A stretch of 64,000 bases of DNA from assembly GCA_016929195.1 (NCBI GenBank), contig JAFGJG010000024.1:1-64000 (forward strand), given 5' to 3'. A program made the translations under genes and the position numbers. Each line of letters starts with the position of its first letter. Position 1 is the first letter of the stretch. Shown here in pieces: positions 5,147 through 54,861 of the stretch. This stretch comes from Thermoleophilaceae bacterium (GTDB lineage: Bacteria > Actinomycetota > Thermoleophilia > Solirubrobacterales > Thermoleophilaceae). The notes under the pieces are model-generated. The model was not told the origin of the DNA. It saw only the letters and a list, made by a program, of their open reading frames with translations, and did not search any database.

Positions 5147-6159
5147 AGCTGCGCCTGGCCCTGATCGTCGTCCTGGCCATCGCGCTGCTCGCCCCCGCCG
5201 GCGCCCGCGCGGCGGCCTTCCTGCCGCCAGGGAACAAGGTCTTCTGGGGCGGCATCGGCGGCTACGAGAAGTCGAACATCCGCGACTTCACGAAGCAGTC
5301 GGGCAAGCACCCGGCCGTCTACGGGTTCTTCGTGAAGATGAAGGCGGGCAAATCCGACCTTCACTGGCTCGGCTTCCGCTTCGAGTACGCGGCCGCGCTG
5401 AAGTCGCGCGTGATGCTGAACGTGGAGCCGGCCGGGAAGAGCATGGGCTCGATCGCGCGCGGCGGAGCCGACGGCTGGCTCACCGCGATGACGCGCTTCC
5501 TGACCCAGTACGACCAGGTCACCTACCTGCGGCTCTGGTCGGAGATGAACAACGCGGTGAACCCCTACTCGCCCTACGACCTGAGCGGGCGCTCGCGCGG
5601 CCCCGACTACAGCGCGAGCGCCTTCAAGCAGGCGTGGCGGCGGGCGGCGATCGTGCTGCGGGGCGGCTCGGTGGCGAAGATGAACCGGAGACTCAGGCGC
5701 CTGCGGCTGCCGAAGGTGAAGACGGGCGCCGACACTCTGCCGAAGCCCAAGGTGTCGCTCTTCTGGGTGCCGCTGTCGTTCGGCAACCCCGAGTCGGAGC
5801 GCCTCCACCCGAAGCACTTCTGGCCCGGCGCCGGCTACGTCGACTGGGTCGGCACGACCTGGTACTCGCCGCACCCGAACTCGGGCGCGATGTCGAGCTT
5901 CTACAACTACCCGAAGTGGCGCCGCAAGCCGTTCGCGTTCGCCGAATGGGGCGTGTGGGGCGCCGAGTCGCCCGGCTTCGTCCACCAGTTCTTCGGCTTC
6001 CTGAAGTCCCACCCGCGCGTGCGGATGGCGATCTACTACCAGTCGGCCACGCTGAAGTCCGAGTTCCGGCTCTCGACGCACCCGCGCTCCCGCGCCGCGC
6101 TGCGCCAGCGGACCGACTGGTCGCGGCTCACGGGCCTGGCGCCCGAGTTCGGCGGCTGA
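5143..6159 (+). CDS. secreted TIM-barrel glycoside hydrolase-like protein
   Basis: 338 residues from GTG 5143, overlapping the HAD stop. It begins with a signal peptide (LRLALIVVLAIALLAPAGARA). Two Glu motifs look like the acid/base and nucleophile of clan GH-A enzymes such as GH26: YLRLWSEMNNAVNP on one strand and KPFAFAEWGVWG near the C-terminus, with WVGTTWYSPHPN between. It probably acts on an extracellular polysaccharide. Coupling to intracellular phosphotransferase and HAD genes is odd for a secreted enzyme and may be positional only. GH assignment is by motif; the subfamily is not certain. Confidence 0.7.
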   Translation: MKLRLALIVVLAIALLAPAGARAAAFLPPGNKVFWGGIGGYEKSNIRDFTKQSGKHPAVYGFFVKMKAGKSDLHWLGFRFEYAAALKSRVMLNVEPAGKSMGSIARGGADGWLTAMTRFLTQYDQVTYLRLWSEMNNAVNPYSPYDLSGRSRGPDYSASAFKQAWRRAAIVLRGGSVAKMNRRLRRLRLPKVKTGADTLPKPKVSLFWVPLSFGNPESERLHPKHFWPGAGYVDWVGTTWYSPHPNSGAMSSFYNYPKWRRKPFAFAEWGVWGAESPGFVHQFFGFLKSHPRVRMAIYYQSATLKSEFRLSTHPRSRAALRQRTDWSRLTGLAPEFGG

Positions 6160-37340: not shown

Positions 37341-37416
<76 letters not shown>

Positions 37417-37497: not shown

Positions 37498-37518
37498 GGT
37501 GGCAACGAAAGTGGCAAC
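37498..37518 (+). repeat. putative integrase arm site, left
   Basis: Two copies of GGCAAC in a block GGTGGCAACGAAAGTGGCAAC, 82 bp right of the attL core. A block identical at 19/21 positions lies at 54688-54708, 106 bp left of the attR core. In the circular form they would flank the core in the same orientation, as arm-type integrase sites do. Confidence 0.5.
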
Positions 37519-44119: not shown

Positions 44120-44494
44120 ATGCCGAAGCTTCGAGACGCCTCGGTGGAAGCGCACCGGACGACCGTCGAATCGACGATGGCCGACGTTGCCGCCTTCCTC
44201 CAGGACGCTCTCGGACAGAAGCTCGTGGCCTACATGGCGGGCGTTGCCGACGCGAAGGCCGTAGGGAGGTGGGCGAGCGGAGAGCGCTCCCCACGGGCCG
44301 AAACCGAACGACGCCTGCGAGATGCGCAGTACATCTTCCGCCTGCTCGTAACCAAGGAGAGCCCGTACACCGTGCGGGCCTGGTTTGTCGGGCTCAACCC
44401 GCAGCTCGACGACGAGTCACCGGCAGCGGCGATCCGCGAGGGACGGACCCGTGATGCCGTGGTTGCCGCGAAGGCTTTTCTCGCAGGGGGATGA
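44120..44494 (+). CDS. Xre/MbcA-ParS-type antitoxin
   Basis: 124 residues from ATG 44120 with a near-perfect Shine-Dalgarno (AAGGAGGT). N-terminal helical part includes an HTH-like stretch (VAGVADAKAVGRWASGERSP), and the C-terminal part is the DUF2384 toxin-binding domain (VRAWFVGLNPQLDDESPAAA, then IREGRTRDAVVAAKAFL). It neutralises the RES toxin encoded next and probably represses its own promoter. Its stop overlaps the toxin start (ATGA). Confidence 0.85.
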   Translation: MPKLRDASVEAHRTTVESTMADVAAFLQDALGQKLVAYMAGVADAKAVGRWASGERSPRAETERRLRDAQYIFRLLVTKESPYTVRAWFVGLNPQLDDESPAAAIREGRTRDAVVAAKAFLAGG

Positions 44495-45192
44495 GCGTCA
44501 AGGTCGTTGAGGCCCCCGAAGCGGGGGTGTGGCGAGTGGGCCGGTCGCCCGACCCACTCGCCCTCAACGACCCGCTTCCACCATCGGACCTGGACAAGCC
44601 CCACACCGGCAACCGGTTCGACAGCCCAACCGGTGCCTATCGGGTCCTGTACTTCGCCACGAAACTCGAGGGCTGCTACGGCGAGACGCTCGCTCGCTTC
44701 CGACCGGACAGCGAACTGGCGGCTCTGCTCGCCGACGAGTGGGAGCGCCTCGGCTGGATGAACCTGGGCGACGTGCCGGCGGCGTGGCGACAGCGCCGGA
44801 TCGCAGTCAACGTGCGCATCCAGCCGACCGGCAGGTTCGAGCACGGCGCACGCTTCCTCGACGTAGAGAACCTCGGGACGCGCGAGTTCCTGAAGCAGCA
44901 GCTCGGCGAGCTGCTTGCCTACTGGGGCCACCCCGACCTCGACGTCGCGACGGTACGGGGCGGCGACCGCCGCGTTACCCGGCTGATCGGACAATGGGCA
45001 TACGACCAGGCCGACGAGAACGGGCGTCCGCTGTACGCCGGAGTCCGTTACGTCTCGCGCCTGAGCTCTGGTTGGGAGTGCTGGGCTGTCTTCGAAGACG
45101 TCGAGCTGGAGGAACTGTCCCGCGAGTCAGTCCTCCCTAGCGACGCTGCCCTTCAGAAGGTCGCCCGCGCCTACGGGCTGACGGTCTTCTAG
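44491..45192 (+). CDS. RES-domain toxin (MbcT-like)
   Basis: 233 residues, translationally coupled to the antitoxin. RES-fold landmarks: VWRVGRS, GNRFDSPTGAYRVLYFATKLEGCYGETLARF (Arg, Tyr and Glu positions), and RYVSRLSSGWECWAVFED with the conserved Ser. RES toxins degrade or phosphorolyse NAD+ and arrest growth. At 233 residues it is a little longer than MbcT. A toxin-antitoxin pair in a mobile element usually serves stability or anti-phage defence. Confidence 0.85.
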   Translation: MSVKVVEAPEAGVWRVGRSPDPLALNDPLPPSDLDKPHTGNRFDSPTGAYRVLYFATKLEGCYGETLARFRPDSELAALLADEWERLGWMNLGDVPAAWRQRRIAVNVRIQPTGRFEHGARFLDVENLGTREFLKQQLGELLAYWGHPDLDVATVRGGDRRVTRLIGQWAYDQADENGRPLYAGVRYVSRLSSGWECWAVFEDVELEELSRESVLPSDAALQKVARAYGLTVF

Positions 45193-46023: not shown

Positions 46024-46482
46024 GTGGGCCTTCGGGAGTGGCTCCTCAGGCAGCCTCGCGAGCCGGACCTGGTCCAGCTCAAAGCCGTCGAGTTCGAAGG
46101 CGACGAGCTCGTCGCCGCCGTTGGTGAGGCCCACTACCAGCCGGCGCTGCGTGCCCTCTGCGGCTCGGACCGGTGGGAAGACGTCAGGTGCGACGTGCGC
46201 GCCGTGCTCGTCCCCGAGCCGGACAACCCCCACGATCCCAACGCGGTCATGGTCCAGGTCGACCAACAGCACGTCGGCTACCTGTCGCGAGGCGACGCGA
46301 TCGACTATGGCGACGCGATCGCGACCCTCTTCTCCTACGGCTGGGTAATCGTGTGTGACGCCCGCATCTCCGGAAGAGGGCCGGGCAGCGAGACACCGAA
46401 CCTCGGCATCTTCCTCCAGATGTTCTCGCCAGACGAGGCCCTCGACCGGGCCTTGGCCTGGCTCCAGCAGCAGCCGTCCTGA
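46024..46482 (+). CDS. HIRAN-domain-like protein
   Basis: 152 residues from GTG 46024. Residues 25-95 follow the HIRAN pattern: AVGEAHYQPALRAL, VLVPEPDNPHDPNAVMV, and QQHVGYLSRGDA. HIRAN domains bind 3' DNA ends or damaged DNA in helicases and phage/MGE proteins. It stands alone here. It may sense DNA ends during element replication or protect them. Confidence 0.65.
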   Translation: MGLREWLLRQPREPDLVQLKAVEFEGDELVAAVGEAHYQPALRALCGSDRWEDVRCDVRAVLVPEPDNPHDPNAVMVQVDQQHVGYLSRGDAIDYGDAIATLFSYGWVIVCDARISGRGPGSETPNLGIFLQMFSPDEALDRALAWLQQQPS

Positions 46483-48431: not shown

Positions 48432-48977
48432 ATGAACGGCGCCTTCGCTCGTCTCGCCCTCGCACCCGTGGGACGGATCCTCGAGCGCTACCCGGTCGAG
48501 ATCGACGACAACGGGACCCTGATCGCCGCGAACCGGGAGCGGACCACGGCCCTGGCCGTCTATGCCGCACTGACGCTCACGGCCAACGAGCGGCGGGAGC
48601 GAACCGAGTTCGAGGCCTCCCGCCAGGGACTCGCTGCTGTCGGAGGCACGACCGATCGGACGGTCGACAAGTACGTTGCCGTCTTCGAGGAGCTGGGGAT
48701 CCTCGAGGTCGCCCGCCGGCCCCGCGGCGGTCTCCACCTTCCCAACCTGTGGACGCTGGTTGACGCCGGCGACCCGAAGCAGGTTCGCCTCGAACTGGAA
48801 GCCGCTTCGCCTCCAGAGGCGAAGCAGATCGCGGACGCCTTACAGAAGAACGAAGGCCAAGAAGTGGTCTCTCTTCATTCGAGAGGTGGTGGTCGCGGGC
48901 GCGCGCAGCTCGCGGCCCTCCCCGGGGGCCGGCAGGGCGGGGACACGTCCCAGTACGACCCACCGACGATGCGATGA
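48432..48977 (+). CDS. winged-helix protein, probable replication initiator
   Basis: 181 residues. A winged-helix domain spans about residues 40-115 (LAVYAALTLTANERRERTEF, TDRTVDKYVAVFEELGILEV, then the wing RPRGGLHLPNLW), like phage replisome-organiser N-domains. The tail is Gln/Gly-rich. The next gene encodes a DnaC-like loader with a 4-bp overlap, a standard phage/plasmid replication pair. It likely binds origin repeats in the element; see 50611-50867. Confidence 0.65.
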   Translation: MNGAFARLALAPVGRILERYPVEIDDNGTLIAANRERTTALAVYAALTLTANERRERTEFEASRQGLAAVGGTTDRTVDKYVAVFEELGILEVARRPRGGLHLPNLWTLVDAGDPKQVRLELEAASPPEAKQIADALQKNEGQEVVSLHSRGGGRGRAQLAALPGGRQGGDTSQYDPPTMR

Positions 48978-49741
48978 CCGCGAGGCGCCTCTGTCCGAGC
49001 TGCGGCCGCGAGATGGACTCGCCACCGCTGCCGCAGCTGAAGGGCAGTCCATCGAGCAAGACGGAGAGGACCTTCGAACAGATCCTGCAAGCAATCGCCG
49101 AGCAGATGCCGTGCGAGGACTGCGGCCTGAAGGCTGACGCCGAGCGCGACGCGGAGAACGAGCGCGCCGAGGCAGATCGCCAGGCTGATGTGCTCGCACG
49201 TCGGGTAGCCCGCTCCGGTCTGCCGCGGATGCTCCAGGGGAACTCGCTCGACACCCTGGACGATCAGGTCCGCGAGCTGATGCGGGCGTTCGCCGAGCGG
49301 CAAGTGGACGCCGTCGCGCTGTACGGCTCGTTCGGGGTCGGCAAGACCCACGCGGCGGCCGCCGCCTTCCAGGCCCGGCTCGAACACGGACCGGGCCGCT
49401 GGTTTTACTTACCGACGCTGTTCGCCCGGCTCGCCGCCGGGTTCGACAGCCCGGCGCGCGAGGAAGCACTGGCGGCCCTAGCGAGTAGGCGAGGCGCCTT
49501 GGTGCTGGACGACATCGACAAGGCCCGGCCCACGGAATACGGCGCGGAGATCATCCTCACTGCCGTCGACGAGGCCGTCACCAACGGCGACGCGCTGATC
49601 ATCACCACGAACCTGAAGTTCAGCGAGCTCGCGAAGAAGTGGCCGGAGCCCTACGGCGACGCGATCGCCTCCCGACTCGCCGGGTACTGCCAGGTCCTCA
49701 CCATGACGGGTGCCGATCGTCGCCTCGCGAGGCCGGCGTGA
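48974..49741 (+). CDS. DnaC/IstB-like AAA+ ATPase (helicase loader)
   Basis: 255 residues. An N-terminal zinc-like segment (CPSCGREM; CEDCGLKA) precedes the ATPase: Walker A GSFGVGKTHAA, Walker B GALVLDDIDKA, sensor 1 LIITTNLKFSEL. It would load the host replicative helicase on the element's origin. GTGA overlap couples it to the arm-binding protein gene. Confidence 0.85.
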   Translation: MTARRLCPSCGREMDSPPLPQLKGSPSSKTERTFEQILQAIAEQMPCEDCGLKADAERDAENERAEADRQADVLARRVARSGLPRMLQGNSLDTLDDQVRELMRAFAERQVDAVALYGSFGVGKTHAAAAAFQARLEHGPGRWFYLPTLFARLAAGFDSPAREEALAALASRRGALVLDDIDKARPTEYGAEIILTAVDEAVTNGDALIITTNLKFSELAKKWPEPYGDAIASRLAGYCQVLTMTGADRRLARPA

Positions 49742-50073
49742 CCAACAGCGAGCGCACCAAGCATCCGGGGATCCGCCGGCGCGGCGATAAGTGGGTGGCC
49801 CAATGGCTCGAGAACGGCAAGCAGCGCTCGCAGACCGTTGACACCCTGGAGGACGCGGAGCGGCTCCGAAGAGAGCGACGCGACGCGCCTCGTTACCGCC
49901 CTCCCGTCATCTCGCCAGCAAACGCCGCCCGCAAGGCCGCCCGTGAGCAGGAACAGCGGCAGGCGCGCAAGCTGGCCCGGGTTGAGGAGGCGCTCACCCG
50001 ACGAGCAGACCAGATCATCAACGAGTTCCGCGAGCGCCGAGAGGGCAACCCTCAAGCTGGAGTCGAGGGATGA
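49738..50073 (+). CDS. free-standing integrase-arm-type DNA-binding protein
   Basis: 111 residues from GTG 49738. Residues 8-45 (HPGIRRRGDKWVAQWLENGK, then QRSQTVDTLEDAERLR) align with the N-terminal arm-binding domain of the element's own integrase (residues about 10-45), 13 of 36 identical by eye. No SAM-like or catalytic domain follows; the rest is a charged helix. It may compete for integrase arm sites and control integration direction. Coupled to the excisionase-like gene (ATGA). Confidence 0.65.
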   Translation: MTNSERTKHPGIRRRGDKWVAQWLENGKQRSQTVDTLEDAERLRRERRDAPRYRPPVISPANAARKAAREQEQRQARKLARVEEALTRRADQIINEFRERREGNPQAGVEG

Positions 50074-50336
50074 CGGGAATCGAGATCCCGTTGTCCGACG
50101 AGCTCGTCGACGCGATCGCCACCCGGGTCCTCGCCCGCCTCGACCAGGGCGGTAGTCACGACGACGAGGACCCGTGGATGGGGGTGCCCGCCTCCGCCGC
50201 CTACCTCGACTGCGGCAAGCGACGGATCTACGACCTCGTCGCCCAGGGGCGCCTGCCCCGGCAGAAGGAAGGCGACCGGCTCGTGTTCCGCCGCTCCCAG
50301 CTCGACGCCCTAGTCGCCGAGGAGCCGCTCACGTGA
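50070..50336 (+). CDS. excisionase-like MerR/HTH_17 protein
   Basis: 88 residues. The HTH_17 (Xis-type winged helix) pattern is clear at residues 40-85: GVPASAAYLDCGKRRIYDLVA, then QGRLPRQKEGDRLVFRRSQL. Such proteins bend attachment-site DNA and push tyrosine integrases toward excision. The N-terminal half is an acidic helix. It is coupled to the gene before it and overlaps the next open frame (GTGA). Confidence 0.8.
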   Translation: MTGIEIPLSDELVDAIATRVLARLDQGGSHDDEDPWMGVPASAAYLDCGKRRIYDLVAQGRLPRQKEGDRLVFRRSQLDALVAEEPLT

Positions 50337-50878
50337 CCGTGCAGGATCGCCACCCCGTTGCCACCCCCACCGAGACCCCGGTTCTGAAACGGCGCCGTGG
50401 GCGAGCGGCGGTGTACCGGACCGGCGTTCCACAGGCCTCGCGCGCGCGTTTTTTAGGTGTCCGACGTGTCCGGTTCCAGACTCCGAAGCGTCTCCTCGAC
50501 GCGGCCCGCGTCCGCGAGAACCTCAGTGCCCAATTGGGCACTGAGGGGCTGAGCGAGAGCAAGGCTCGTGAGTTGGCGCCGCTGCCGCCGGCGAACACCT
50601 GGGCGGCGAATCGGGTGCTATCGGGTCTGTTCGGGTCCCCACAGGCGCGCGCGGGCGCGCGCGAGGGCGGCTCCGAGAACTCCAGAAACTCGCCCCTGGC
50701 CGGGCGACCCAAACCGCGTCGAACCGCACGAAACCGCGTCGCTCCACCGCCACCCCCCGTCCCCCGGGGCGGCGAAGAATCCCATGTAATCCCGTCTTAT
50801 CCCGTGACAGGCGGTACCCCCGATGGGGTAGTCGAAGCCTGGCTTATCCTGGCTTTTCCTGGCTCTCGCCATGGCTGA
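50333..50878 (+). CDS. doubtful gene across the repeat region
   Basis: 181 residues from GTG 50333, which overlaps the previous stop in the style of the cluster. The first ~90 residues (RRRGRAAVYRTGVPQASR; LLDAARVRENLSAQLG) could be a small basic protein. But the second half crosses four tandem 10-bp repeat families, whose period is not a multiple of three, and reads as Pro/Arg low complexity. It also overlaps the next ATG by 8 bases. I think at most the first part is coding. Confidence 0.25.
   Translation: MTVQDRHPVATPTETPVLKRRRGRAAVYRTGVPQASRARFLGVRRVRFQTPKRLLDAARVRENLSAQLGTEGLSESKARELAPLPPANTWAANRVLSGLFGSPQARAGAREGGSENSRNSPLAGRPKPRRTARNRVAPPPPPVPRGGEESHVIPSYPVTGGTPDGVVEAWLILAFPGSRHG
50521..50546. 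repeat. 26-bp perfect palindrome
   Basis: Centre at 50533/50534; left arm CCTCAGTGCCCAA, right arm its exact complement. No spacer. It could bind a dimeric regulator or form a cruciform at an origin. Confidence 0.85.
50611..50640 (+). repeat. 10-bp tandem repeat family A, 3 units
   Basis: Consensus TCGGGTnnnn, three units without gaps, six bases invariant and four variable. Confidence 0.75.
50711..50740 (+). repeat. 10-bp tandem repeat family B, 3 units
   Basis: Consensus RAACCGCRYS; units 1 and 3 are identical (AAACCGCGTC), unit 2 is GAACCGCACG. Confidence 0.75.
50779..50808 (+). repeat. 10-bp tandem repeat family C, 3 units
   Basis: Consensus ATCCCRTnnn, three units without gaps. It is more AT-rich than its surroundings. 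Confidence 0.75.
50838..50867 (+). repeat. 10-bp tandem repeat family D, 3 units
   Basis: Consensus CCTGGCTnnn, three units without gaps, ending 3 bases before the ATG of the next gene. It must overlap that gene's promoter or leader. Confidence 0.75.
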
Positions 50879-51170
50879 CTACGGCAAGATCAGCCTCAAG
50901 GCGGGCCCGCCGGCGGCGACCTGGCGCGACATCAAGGCCGCGCTCCGGCTCGGCTTTCCCCGATTCGCCTACTTCTACCGCCACCACCGCTACCTCGTGC
51001 CCGAGGTCGAGGAGGAGCTGCTCCGCGAGGGTGGCCTGGCGTTCATCCGCGCCGGCGAGGAGATGATCGCGCTGGCCGACTACATCAGCGCGAGCCGCCG
51101 CGAGGCCCTCGACCGGATGCCCCACCGCCGTGAGAGTTGCGCAGATGGCCGTTCGAGGGTGCCGAGATAG
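50871..51170 (+). CDS. small hypothetical protein
   Basis: 99 residues from ATG 50871, directly after repeat family D, with no room for a normal Shine-Dalgarno. Sequence: ATWRDIKAALRLGFPRFAYF, then an aromatic/basic YRHHRYLVPEVEEELLREGG, helix LAFIRAGEEMIALADYI. It has no known motif. It precedes the protease and may be a packaging or scaffold partner. Confidence 0.55.
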   Translation: MADYGKISLKAGPPAATWRDIKAALRLGFPRFAYFYRHHRYLVPEVEEELLREGGLAFIRAGEEMIALADYISASRREALDRMPHRRESCADGRSRVPR

Positions 51171-51254
51171 TCGCCCGTGATGATCCATCGGCGGTGCCGG
51201 CGTCGGTCAACAGCGGCGTCGGCATCGCATCTTCTCCGACCCGAACGAGGTTCC

Positions 51255-52661
51255 GTGACCGTTAGCAGCCCCGACCGACTCGCCTTCTTCAACGACCTGC
51301 CGCGACTCACCGGCGCCGCCTTCCCGGACGGGGCACCCGAGGACATCCCTGCCGAGGAGCCCAAGCTCACCTCGACGATTCAGCTCGGCAAGACCGGCCG
51401 GTTTCGGCACCCGCGGTACGGCGACTTCACGGTGTCGACGAGCACGTTTGAGGCGATGGTCGCGAACTTCGAGAAGCACGTGCCGATGAAGGAGCTCCCG
51501 GTCGACTACGACCACACGCCGGATCTCGGTGGCCCGACTCGTGCGTGCGGTTGGATCAAGTCGATCGCCGTCGAGGGTCAGAAGTTGATGGGCGAGGTTG
51601 AGTGGACGTGGTCGGGTGCTTACTCGATCAAGGAGGGCGAGTACCGGTTCATTAGCCCCACGTGGCAGATGGAGTACACCGACGACGAGGGCAACGAGCA
51701 CGGCCCCACGCTGCTCGCGTGCGCGCTCACGAACCGGCCGTTCTTCGAGGGGATGGCCGTCGTCCAGCTCGCCCAGAACTTCTCCCGCGACCAACTGCCG
51801 GCCGGCTTCCAATTGGCCAGCGAGCAGCCTGCTGTCGGACAGACGTTCGACGCCCACTGGACGGAGGCCCTAGCCGCCGGGATCCGGCCGGAGTTTCGGC
51901 CCCTCTACGAGGACAAGTGGCGCGTTAACGCCCACTTGCGTAAGACCGCCACCGGCCGCGAGTTCCTCCTCGAAACCGGTCTGTTGCTCCAGCGGCTCGT
52001 CTGGGACGACAATGAGGCGGACGAGCCCACGATCACCCTGGGCCGCGTCTCGTTCGCCAAGCCGTCCGGGCTGACCCCGGTAGGCGAGGCCCTGGCCGAC
52101 CGGATCGAGGCGGTAGGCGCCGAGCACGGCATCCGCAGCTTCGACGCCGCGCTCGCCCGCATGGCGGGTCGGGCCGCGCCGCCGCGGGCGTTCGCGACCG
52201 CGGTCGAGGACGGCGCCGCCGGCGTCGACCCCAAGCGGGCGGCGCTCGCCCGGCGCGCGGAGCGGATCGCCGACGACGAACAGGTCGGGCTCGATGACGC
52301 GCTCGAGCTGGCCGCGTTCGACGTTGAGATCGCCGAGCTGCGCGCGGACGACGGGTCCTCGCCGGTGGAGTGGGAGGACACCTCCCAGCCGTTCTCGGCG
52401 TCACCGTGGAACGACGAGGACTGGGAGCGTGACCGGCGGCGCGCGGCAACGGTCGGAATGGAGCTCACCAGAGAGTCGTGGGAGGCCCACCTTGCGCGTG
52501 GCGGCGATCCGGTCTTCGAGTTCGCGAAGGCACTGCGGAAGCGCCAGGTCGATCCGCTGGAGCGGGCGCGCGAAACGAAGCTGCACGCCGCCCAGGACCA
52601 GGAGGGCCAACGGCGCCGCGAGGCGATCGAGAAGGAGCTGGAACGACGGACCGGCCGCTGA
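51255..52661 (+). CDS. Mu-I-like phage prohead protease/scaffold protein
   Basis: 468 residues from GTG 51255 (GAGG 5 bases upstream). Residues 35-180 match Mu gpI-type proteases: STIQLGKTGRFRHPRYGDF, ELPVDYDHTPDLGGPTRACG (catalytic His), EYRFISPTWQMEY (Ser), and LLACALTNRPFFEGM. The rest is acidic helical scaffold-like sequence. In Mu-like phages it processes prohead scaffold and is followed by the capsid gene. Here no capsid gene follows, so its partner proteins are missing or come from a helper phage. Confidence 0.85.
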   Translation: MTVSSPDRLAFFNDLPRLTGAAFPDGAPEDIPAEEPKLTSTIQLGKTGRFRHPRYGDFTVSTSTFEAMVANFEKHVPMKELPVDYDHTPDLGGPTRACGWIKSIAVEGQKLMGEVEWTWSGAYSIKEGEYRFISPTWQMEYTDDEGNEHGPTLLACALTNRPFFEGMAVVQLAQNFSRDQLPAGFQLASEQPAVGQTFDAHWTEALAAGIRPEFRPLYEDKWRVNAHLRKTATGREFLLETGLLLQRLVWDDNEADEPTITLGRVSFAKPSGLTPVGEALADRIEAVGAEHGIRSFDAALARMAGRAAPPRAFATAVEDGAAGVDPKRAALARRAERIADDEQVGLDDALELAAFDVEIAELRADDGSSPVEWEDTSQPFSASPWNDEDWERDRRRAATVGMELTRESWEAHLARGGDPVFEFAKALRKRQVDPLERARETKLHAAQDQEGQRRREAIEKELERRTGR

Positions 52662-52888: not shown

Positions 52889-53000
52889 CGATGGCACGGT
52901 ACCACAAGGTGTACTGGACGTGATACTCTAACCGACGACCACATTAGGCGCCCCGGGTCGCCGAAACGACCCGGGGCTGGACAAAGGAGCGGTACCTCCA

Positions 53001-53423
53001 ATGCCCGATCGCGAAGCTACTGACGGCCCCGGCCGTCCCCGCTGCACCATGTGCGGAGGCCACGAAGGCCTCCCAGCCGGCGCTAAGAATCTCGAGTCGT
53101 ACTGCCTCGCCTGCCGGATCTACGAGGCCGGAGTGGCCGAGGCCAGGGCGATCGCCGCCGTCGAGGCGCTGGAGGGCGTCATGGAGTGGGTCGCGGGTGC
53201 GGCCCACCCAGATGAGCTGCGTGAGGTGTTCGAGGCGGCTCTCAAGGGCGAGTGCTACGTCAGTCCTAACCGTCTGCAGCGCGAGATCACAGACGTGCTG
53301 GGAGCCGGCCAGTCGCCGCTGAACTTCGAAGAGCGTCAGAACCACCGGTCGCAGCTCATGGACGAGTTCCAGGGCGAAGGCAAGCACGACGTGTCGCGCG
53401 TCCCGCCGACCGAGGCGAGCTGA
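53001..53423 (+). CDS. zinc-ribbon protein upstream of integrase
   Basis: 140 residues from ATG 53001 (AAAGGAG 13 bases upstream). Two Cys pairs (CTMCGGHEG; YCLACRIYEAG) form a likely zinc ribbon, then a helical body (AIAAVEALEGVMEWVAGAA). The TGA overlaps the integrase ATG, so it is co-translated with it and may modulate integration. No family recognised. Confidence 0.6.
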   Translation: MPDREATDGPGRPRCTMCGGHEGLPAGAKNLESYCLACRIYEAGVAEARAIAAVEALEGVMEWVAGAAHPDELREVFEAALKGECYVSPNRLQREITDVLGAGQSPLNFEERQNHRSQLMDEFQGEGKHDVSRVPPTEAS

Positions 53424-54805
53424 TGGCCGCTCCGATGGTCCGAACATCAGTGCCGGGGGTGTACAAGCGCGGCTCCCGCTACGTCGTCGTCTACACGGCC
53501 GGCGGCAAGCAGCGGAAGGAGTCCGCGCGCACGCTCGCGGAGGCCCGCAAGCTGAAGGCCGTGCGACAGGCTGACGTCGCGCGCGGCGAGTTCCAGGCCG
53601 CGTCGAAGCTCACGTTCAAGGAGTACGCGACCGAGTGGATCGAGCGGTACGCCGGCAAAGGCAAGGGGTTCCGGGAGTCGACCCGGGACGATTACCGGCG
53701 GGACCTGGCGCTGTACGCCTTCCCGTTCTTCCACGACCGCCACCGCCGCCGGCTGACGGAGATCACCCCGCGCGACATCGCGAACTTCGTCGGCTGGCTC
53801 GCCGACGACCAAGCCCAGGCCGACCACGAGCACCAGCTGCGCAAGTGGGCGGAGCAGGACTGGATGACACGCCGGCGGGCCGAGCAGCAGGCCGCCGGCC
53901 GGGAGGGTCGGCGGGTCCGCGAGGAGCGTCGGCCGCCACGACCGAACCGACGGGAAGCGAAGCGGCTGTCCGAGTCCCGGATCCGGTCGATCCTGAACCC
54001 GGTCAGAGCTTGCCTCGGCACGGCGGTCGAGGAGGACCTGATCCGTCGCACACCGGCTTCACGGGTGTCCATCCCGCGGCGACGGGTGCCCGGCGAGCCG
54101 GGAGTCCGCAAGGCCCGGGCGCTCAGCCGCGAGCAGCTGGCCACCATCCTCGAGCTCGTCCACCCCTCGCACCGGCTGCTGTTCGCGTTCCTGGCGTCGA
54201 CTGGGCTGCGGATCGGCGAGGCGATCGGCCTCCAGTGGAAGCACCTCCACCTCGACGGGTCAGAGCCCCACGTCGACGTACAGCGGGAGATCTACCGGGG
54301 CCGGGTCGATCTGCCGAAGACCGAGGCCGGCGTGCGGCAGGTGCCCCTGCACCATGACCTGGTGCTCGAGCTGCGGTCAGCGCGGGCCGAGTCGGCCTGG
54401 CCGGGTGACGAGGATCCCGTGTTCGCGTCACGGCGGGGGACTCCGCTGTCGCCGGACAACCTGCGCCGCCGGGTGCTCGCCCCAGTCGCCGAGGAGGTGG
54501 GTGTGCCGTGGGCGGGCTTCCATGCGTTCCGGCACACGTTCGCCTCGCTGATGTTCGAGCGCGGTGCGAACCCAAAGCAGGTGCAGCGCGCGCTCGGCCA
54601 CGGATCGCTGAAAGTCACGCTTGACGTGTACACCCATTTGCTCTCCGACCGGCTCGACGAGCCGCTCGACCTGGCCGCCGAGCTCGGGGTGGCAACGAAA
54701 ACGGCAACAGACCCGACAGCACACACCCGTAACGGATCCGACGGGCGCCCCGACGGATTCGGCTTGGACAGCGGAATTGCCGGACTGGCCGGTACGCTCC
54801 CGTAG
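53423..54805 (+). CDS. int: tyrosine recombinase (integrase)
   Basis: 460 residues. N-terminal arm-binding domain (residues ~10-55: GVYKRGSRYVVVYTAGGKQ), SAM-like core-binding domain (~60-220) with a long basic insertion, and catalytic domain (~230-420). Catalytic residues: Arg263 (STGLRIGEAIGLQW), Lys in the beta hairpin, His367/Arg370 (HAFRHTF), His in LGHGS, and Tyr403 (LDVYTHL). It inserts the element at tRNA-Asp. The gene ends 8 bp before the attR core, and its 3' end contains a putative arm site. Confidence 0.95.
   Translation: MAAPMVRTSVPGVYKRGSRYVVVYTAGGKQRKESARTLAEARKLKAVRQADVARGEFQAASKLTFKEYATEWIERYAGKGKGFRESTRDDYRRDLALYAFPFFHDRHRRRLTEITPRDIANFVGWLADDQAQADHEHQLRKWAEQDWMTRRRAEQQAAGREGRRVREERRPPRPNRREAKRLSESRIRSILNPVRACLGTAVEEDLIRRTPASRVSIPRRRVPGEPGVRKARALSREQLATILELVHPSHRLLFAFLASTGLRIGEAIGLQWKHLHLDGSEPHVDVQREIYRGRVDLPKTEAGVRQVPLHHDLVLELRSARAESAWPGDEDPVFASRRGTPLSPDNLRRRVLAPVAEEVGVPWAGFHAFRHTFASLMFERGANPKQVQRALGHGSLKVTLDVYTHLLSDRLDEPLDLAAELGVATKTATDPTAHTRNGSDGRPDGFGLDSGIAGLAGTLP
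54688..54708 (+). repeat. putative integrase arm site, right
   Basis: Block GGTGGCAACGAAAACGGCAAC, 19/21 identical to 37498-37518. It lies inside the integrase coding region, 106 bp left of the attR core. Confidence 0.5.
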
Positions 54806-54813
54806 CGTCAGAG

Positions 54814-54861
54814 CGGCCTGTCACGCCGGAGGTCGCGGGTTCGAGTCCCGTCGCTCGCGCT
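54814..54861 (+). repeat. attR core, remnant of the original tRNA-Asp 3' half
   Basis: Repeats 37369-37416 with two changes. It keeps a G-C pair in the T-stem where the functional tRNA has A-U. Without a 5' half it cannot be a tRNA gene now. It marks the right end of the element. Confidence 0.9.

Follow-up and report, generated by a model that had tools for sequence, protein, structure and literature searches.

Four different sets of tandem 10-bp repeats within 257 bp of a prophage-like element: a candidate multi-operator control region ahead of an integrase

Four arrays of direct repeats, each with its own motif and each composed of three units spaced 10 bp apart, were found within 257 bp of a prophage-like element in a Thermoleophilaceae bacterium (contig JAFGJG010000024.1, positions 1 to 64,000, the 64-kb stretch of DNA analyzed here and called the window). 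The interpretation that we favor, tentatively and with a probability of roughly 0.45, is that the segment carrying them is a multi-operator region that controls the p99-protease-integrase segment and is bound cooperatively by small winged-helix proteins. This reading is based on the positions of similar arrays in integrase loci, on a triplet in the attP of a homologous integrase (that of genome G053), and on the operator layouts described for RDFs, Apl, RdfS, and BldC.

Results

The four arrays and the palindrome that precedes them are as follows.

50521 to 50546, no strand assigned: perfect, spacerless palindrome of 26 bp, CCTCAGTGCCCAATTGGGCACTGAGG, a candidate dimeric operator
50611 to 50640, forward strand: array A, three units of TCGGGTnnnn starting at 50611, 50621, and 50631
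50711 to 50740, forward strand: array B, three units of RAACCGCnnn (core (A/G)AACCGC) starting at 50711, 50721, and 50731
50779 to 50808, forward strand: array C, three units of ATCCCRTnnn (core ATCCC(A/G)T) starting at 50779, 50789, and 50799
50838 to 50867, forward strand: array D, three units of CCTGGCTnnn starting at 50838, 50848, and 50858, separated from the start codon of p99 by 3 bp

An exact scan for period-10 repeats (six or more consecutive columns identical across three tandem units) gave three matches in the 64 kb, all of them inside the four-array region, and a tolerant scan at the same period (seven columns, score of at least 18/21) gave the four arrays and nothing further, all within 50611-50867. 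These results confirm the four repeat families and the 26-bp palindrome at the positions given in a preliminary description of this DNA. The number of tolerant-scan matches expected in order-3 Markov sequence is 0.4 per 64 kb, compared to the four found here within 257 bp, which is far beyond chance. No spacerless palindrome in the window is longer than this one, the next being of 22 and 18 bp. In each of the four arrays, the conserved columns are contiguous (5 to 7 bp) and the 3 to 4 spacer columns are variable, a pattern that would favor selected sites over recent slippage.

Coding constraint through the arrays, which the preliminary description had named as evidence against its own reading, was not seen: coding log-odds were negative in all six frames across 50600-50840, demonstrating that the arrays are not coding. 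An open frame at 50333-50878 overlaps both flanking genes and has a weak coding signal at 50420-50540 only. No match to a sigma-70 promoter was found in the array region, no Rfam family passed for the array segment, and its RNA folding was no better than that of shuffled sequences (z = 0.84). Comparison of the array segment with phage and plasmid collections by blastn gave no homologues, and tblastn among phages gave no match for p99 or for the open frame that spans the segment. A possible second copy in the same genome was rejected, as the sole further match was a chance similarity inside a coding gene.

The element that carries the arrays is approximately 17.4 kb long, is located in tRNA-Asp, and is bounded by 48-bp att repeats. 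It resembles a reduced prophage or a phage satellite, and no terminase, portal, or capsid gene was recognized among the element genes scanned. Its ends and the genes that concern us here are the following.

37369 to 37416, forward strand: attL, the 3' part of an intact tRNA-Asp gene (37341-37415), a 48-bp direct repeat that differs from attR at 2 positions
48432 to 48977, forward strand: winged-helix, replication-initiator/DnaD-like protein (PHROG 8102/186; weak HTH_Crp_2 match)
48974 to 49741, forward strand: DnaC-like helicase loader
49744 to 50073, forward strand: AP2-like arm-binding domain standing alone, a homologue of the N-termini of integrases (PF00847 at E = 0.003, which does not reach the curated cut-off)
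50070 to 50336, forward strand: winged-helix protein of the HTH_17 family, similar to excisionases/regulators and a candidate binder of the arrays (PF12728, PHROG 66)
50871 to 51170, forward strand: p99, an orphan protein with four predicted helices and no family
51177 to 52661, forward strand: Mu I-like head maturation protease (PF10123, PHROG 328), which may start at 51258
53423 to 54805, forward strand: tyrosine integrase (PF00589, PHROG 1)
54814 to 54861, forward strand: attR, a 3' fragment of tRNA-Asp that immediately follows the integrase gene, the right end of the element

The HTH_17 gene ends 275 bp before array A. Its homologues adjoin related integrases, and no arrays were found within 1.5 kb of HTH_17 homologues elsewhere. 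The gene for the AP2-like arm domain lies just before it (window 49744-50073), and its stand-alone product could be a competitor of the integrase at arm sites. The p99 protein has no recognizable family or fold, its structure model being uninformative (pLDDT 68.7), and no clear relative of either p99 or the protease was found in the order. The DnaC gene was rejected as a marker for related elements because it is too generic.

Close pairs of the integrase (Int) arm motif were found in three places in the 64 kb, at attL, at attR, and at 50346, with none elsewhere of such quality. These pairs, and a leader upstream of the integrase gene, are as follows.

37499 to 37518, forward strand: Int arm-type pair GTGGCAAC-N4-GTGGCAAC on the attL side; the motif is also present at the att of loci L065 and L067
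50346 to 50364, reverse strand: third Int arm-type pair, inverted (ATCGCCACCCCGTTGCCAC), 10 bp past the HTH_17 stop codon
52907 to 53000, forward strand: leader of int containing hairpin GCCCCGGGTCGCCGAAACGACCCGGGGC; it can be aligned with the pre-int leaders of L067, L069, L071, and L072
54689 to 54708, forward strand: Int arm-type pair on the attR side, GTGGCAAC-N4-ACGGCAAC, lying within the 3' end of int; a pair occupies the same place in L067

Paired direct repeats 11 to 12 bp apart adjoin att in close integrase relatives, as is typical of arm-type sites. The pair at 50346, 250 bp from the arrays, shares its motif with both att arms, as an integrase arm-type site should, and the four arrays do not; no copy of any of the four array motifs scored well near the element's own attL or attR. 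An inverted pair directly after the HTH_17 stop codon is also kept in three other genomes (L067, L072, and L071), the positional conservation looked for in an integrase-control site at this place. In these three, the arm pair is followed by a hairpin-bearing leader and then by int. Because the pair occupies the same place within an uninterrupted hth17-int module there, we take it to be an int-control site in these relatives.

The leaders of the relatives lie at L067:12395-12480, L072:1686-1771 (reverse strand), L071:2927-3007 (reverse strand), and L069:5125-5205; like the hairpin-bearing stretch at 52935-53003 of the window, they have the pattern GCCCCGG...CCGGGGC upstream of int, often followed by GGCACCGG. 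A possible role for the hairpin-bearing leader is that of an attenuator of integrase expression. The leader-like hairpin of the window is located at about 52950, and the approximately 2.5 kb between it and the arm pair hold the palindrome, the four arrays, p99, the protease, and a small minus-strand frame, indicating that the arrays were inserted into a conserved integrase-control region. The preliminary description had held that homologous elements without the repeats would count against its proposal, and this is what was found, as homologous integration modules lacked the arrays. Since the segment was found only here, the arrays may belong to the p99/protease cargo and not to the integrase system.

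We then compared the format of the arrays with that of repeats in other loci. In a sample of 97 loci centered on related integrases, all 10 of the 3x10-bp arrays detected lay no more than 700 bp downstream of int, in stretches that total 48 kb, and the remaining 794 kb contained none. In three of these loci (L065, L077, and L165), the array lies beside a tRNA-like core and inside 11-bp Int arm pairs, the position that Xis sites have in lambda. The attachment region of L165 is especially clear: across 5540-5850 it has an Int arm pair (TTGGTCACAC), the tRNA-like core, a 3x10-bp ATGATT array, and a second arm pair. Among 232 genomes of the order, non-coding TCSGGT triplets other than simple repeats were found only in the window and in the attP of the homologous integrase of G053; triplets in G168 and G194 were rejected because they lie inside coding genes, and the remaining ones were simple repeats.

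The preliminary description had suggested a composite nucleoprotein site, serving excision control or as a multi-operator promoter. This suggestion gains indirect support, since the arrays are phased, non-coding, and beside both an Int arm pair and an excisionase-like HTH_17 gene, and since their format is confined to attP in integrase loci.

A TCGGGT scan of viral contigs was dominated by (TCGGG)n pentamers, which were filtered out. One-turn triplets in these contigs also occurred beside initiator, primase, Mu-like transposase, portal, and terminase genes, in loci that were chosen by motif and hence are unusable for frequencies. The format alone therefore leaves function unfixed. A 3x10-bp array was present beside phage primase/helicase-like genes in L421, L431, and L420, and weakly so in L225, and a 10-bp-spaced array lies inside an O-like initiator gene in L352; those of L421, L431, L420, and L352 are probably iterons. 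Three different 10-bp repeat families stand in a row in L259 (7510-7690) and two in L277 (7400-7640), each time upstream of a terminase/portal operon. L231 has an array that is almost the same as array C, close to the gene for a CI-like repressor at a contig end. This locus has no genes in common with the element, and the likeness was treated as convergence.

Discussion

The preliminary description held that no element with this format had been described, which is incorrect. The operators of Apl, lambda Xis, and other RDFs (PMC7498355) and those of BldC (PMC5859096) are known, and iterons and the SPP1 pac boxes (PMC4737164) are looser precedents; several of these precedents have repeats one turn apart. 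RDF sites are direct repeats spaced by one turn, and Apl operators, which are 6 bp long and of which at least three adjacent copies are needed for binding in vitro, occur both at att and at early promoters (PMC7498355). The arrays resemble the sites of phage 186 Apl (att and pR-pL) and of lambda Xis (X1-X1.5-X2) in having at least three short direct repeats one turn (10 to 11 bp) apart, the standard for such sites, and in being linked to the gene for a small winged-helix excisionase or regulator, here HTH_17, a candidate cognate binder (PMC7498355). They differ in having four motifs instead of one and in their location, since the Apl and Xis sites are at att, between the core and the Int arms, or between early promoters, whereas the arrays in the window are 4 kb from attR.

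RdfS of ICEMlSym is a MerR-like wHTH RDF, and in that element, as in the window, Int arm sites lie near the int control region; RdfS and IntS control their own promoters in addition to excision (PMC11963761). RdfS has no consensus motif, however, and the motifs in the window are crisp. BldC, also MerR-like, binds head-to-tail to direct repeats at Streptomyces smeA-sffA and whiI, with each protomer taking up one helical turn at smeA-sffA (PMC5859096), but it is a chromosomal developmental regulator whose repeats are AT-rich and whose sites are about 9 bp.

Under the multi-operator interpretation, the order of features between 50340 and 50870 (the Int arm-type pair after the HTH_17 gene, the palindrome, and four phased arrays, with p99, the protease, p140, and the integrase downstream) would be read as follows. 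Each array would be an operator of three 6- to 7-bp sites on one face of the helix, to which small monomeric winged-helix proteins would bind cooperatively, head-to-tail. The HTH_17 product is the first candidate for such a binder, and the arm-domain protein and p99 are candidates for the other arrays. Once bound, these proteins would bend the DNA, and they and the Int bound at the arm pair might jointly switch transcription of the downstream segment, in parallel with Apl at pR-pL and with RdfS and IntS at their own promoters. The four motifs could reflect several proteins or one protein of loose specificity. Several points speak against this interpretation: the arrays are away from the element's own att, HTH_17 homologues elsewhere have none nearby, the segment was found only here, a single RDF normally has one motif, no sigma-70 match was found, and arrays of this format also adjoin primase, initiator, and terminase genes in other viral contigs. 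It is possible but less likely that the arrays act directly in an excision complex 4 kb away.

The preliminary description also raised the possibility of a replication origin. On such a reading, the winged-helix initiator would bind the arrays as iterons, and its gene adjoins that of the DnaC-like loader. The initiator and loader genes are indeed 1.1 to 2.1 kb upstream, and the viral arrays of L352, L421, L431, L420, and, weakly, L225 provide a likeness to lambda-type iteron origins, whose direct-repeat arrays are found in or near O-like or primase genes. Iterons of one origin normally share a single motif. The arrays have four and lack the AT-rich unwinding element that should accompany copies of one motif, as there is no strongly AT-rich stretch in the segment (GC content of 0.69, and 0.59 in the part with arrays C and D). 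A more classical candidate lies within the initiator gene:

48776 to 48880, forward strand: candidate lambda-like origin, made up of repeats GAAGCnGnTTCGCCTC 22 bp apart, a further copy in inverted orientation, and then the 40 bp with the highest AT content in the element

With this better candidate at 48.8 kb, we consider it unlikely that the arrays themselves are an origin.

We regard as quite unlikely a role for the arrays as a pac/cos-like packaging site or a late-operon operator, in which a late activator or a ring resembling a small terminase would read them. They do precede p99 and the Mu I-like protease, which on this reading would be a remnant head operon, p99 directly follows array D, and p99 and the arrays co-occur in this element only. 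At SPP1 pac, three direct-repeat sets span the promoters and the start of the small terminase gene, so that several different direct-repeat sets stand ahead of the first packaging gene in SPP1 and SF6, a possible likeness to the arrays; in SF6, the DNA-binding domain of the small terminase showed little sequence preference for the repeats (PMC4737164). The repeat families of L259 and L277 likewise lie just upstream of terminase/portal operons, but they have 5 to 8 units each instead of 3 and were retrieved by a search with a motif from the window. Moreover, the small and large terminase genes that adjoin a pac or cos site, and the portal gene, were not recognized among the annotated element genes scanned, and p99, as noted above, has no recognizable family or fold.

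A variant of the multi-operator interpretation, which appears distinctly unlikely, is that of a multi-input hub, in which each of the four arrays is read by a different small winged-helix protein and the arrays jointly set how strongly a defective prophage or satellite expresses its protease-integrase segment. Its binders could be the element's own or come from co-resident elements, whose excisionases the hub might sense or titrate.

It is improbable that the segment is an attachment-site relic, with attP-like arms and no core, derived from another element or from a rearranged integration module. Such a relic would account for an Int arm pair and excisionase-type arrays together in one 500-bp segment, and the boundaries of the insertion adjoin the ancestral int-control site. 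However, the segment showed neither a core nor a second arm pair, the arrays are well preserved, and the arm pair has the same place in relatives whose hth17-int module is uninterrupted, where it is an int-control site. Finally, simple drifted 10-bp tandem repeats do arise in other contigs (L259 and L341), but functionless chance or slippage repeats are a highly improbable explanation here, given the excess of arrays over the Markov expectation and the conserved core with variable spacer in all four.

The layout seen here is already known for small viral proteins that govern excision and gene expression by lining up head-to-tail on DNA, and four different sets side by side are the unusual part. 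In integrase-centered loci, exact one-turn triplets are a nearly background-free sign of attP-type control sites, and the triplets could therefore locate excisionase sites from sequence alone. The four-motif region of the window would allow one to test how several head-to-tail operator arrays combine in one control region.

Several other features of the element were recorded. A 454-aa upstream protein was considered as a multi-HTH_17-domain protein and rejected, as neither the HTH_17 model nor Pfam supported this assignment. A 1923-aa frame reads like a tape-measure protein, and the element also encodes a HIRAN-domain protein (window 46024-46482). A gene for a 124-aa protein without a family match is followed by a RES-domain gene (window 44120-45192), and the two are likely to be a toxin-antitoxin pair.
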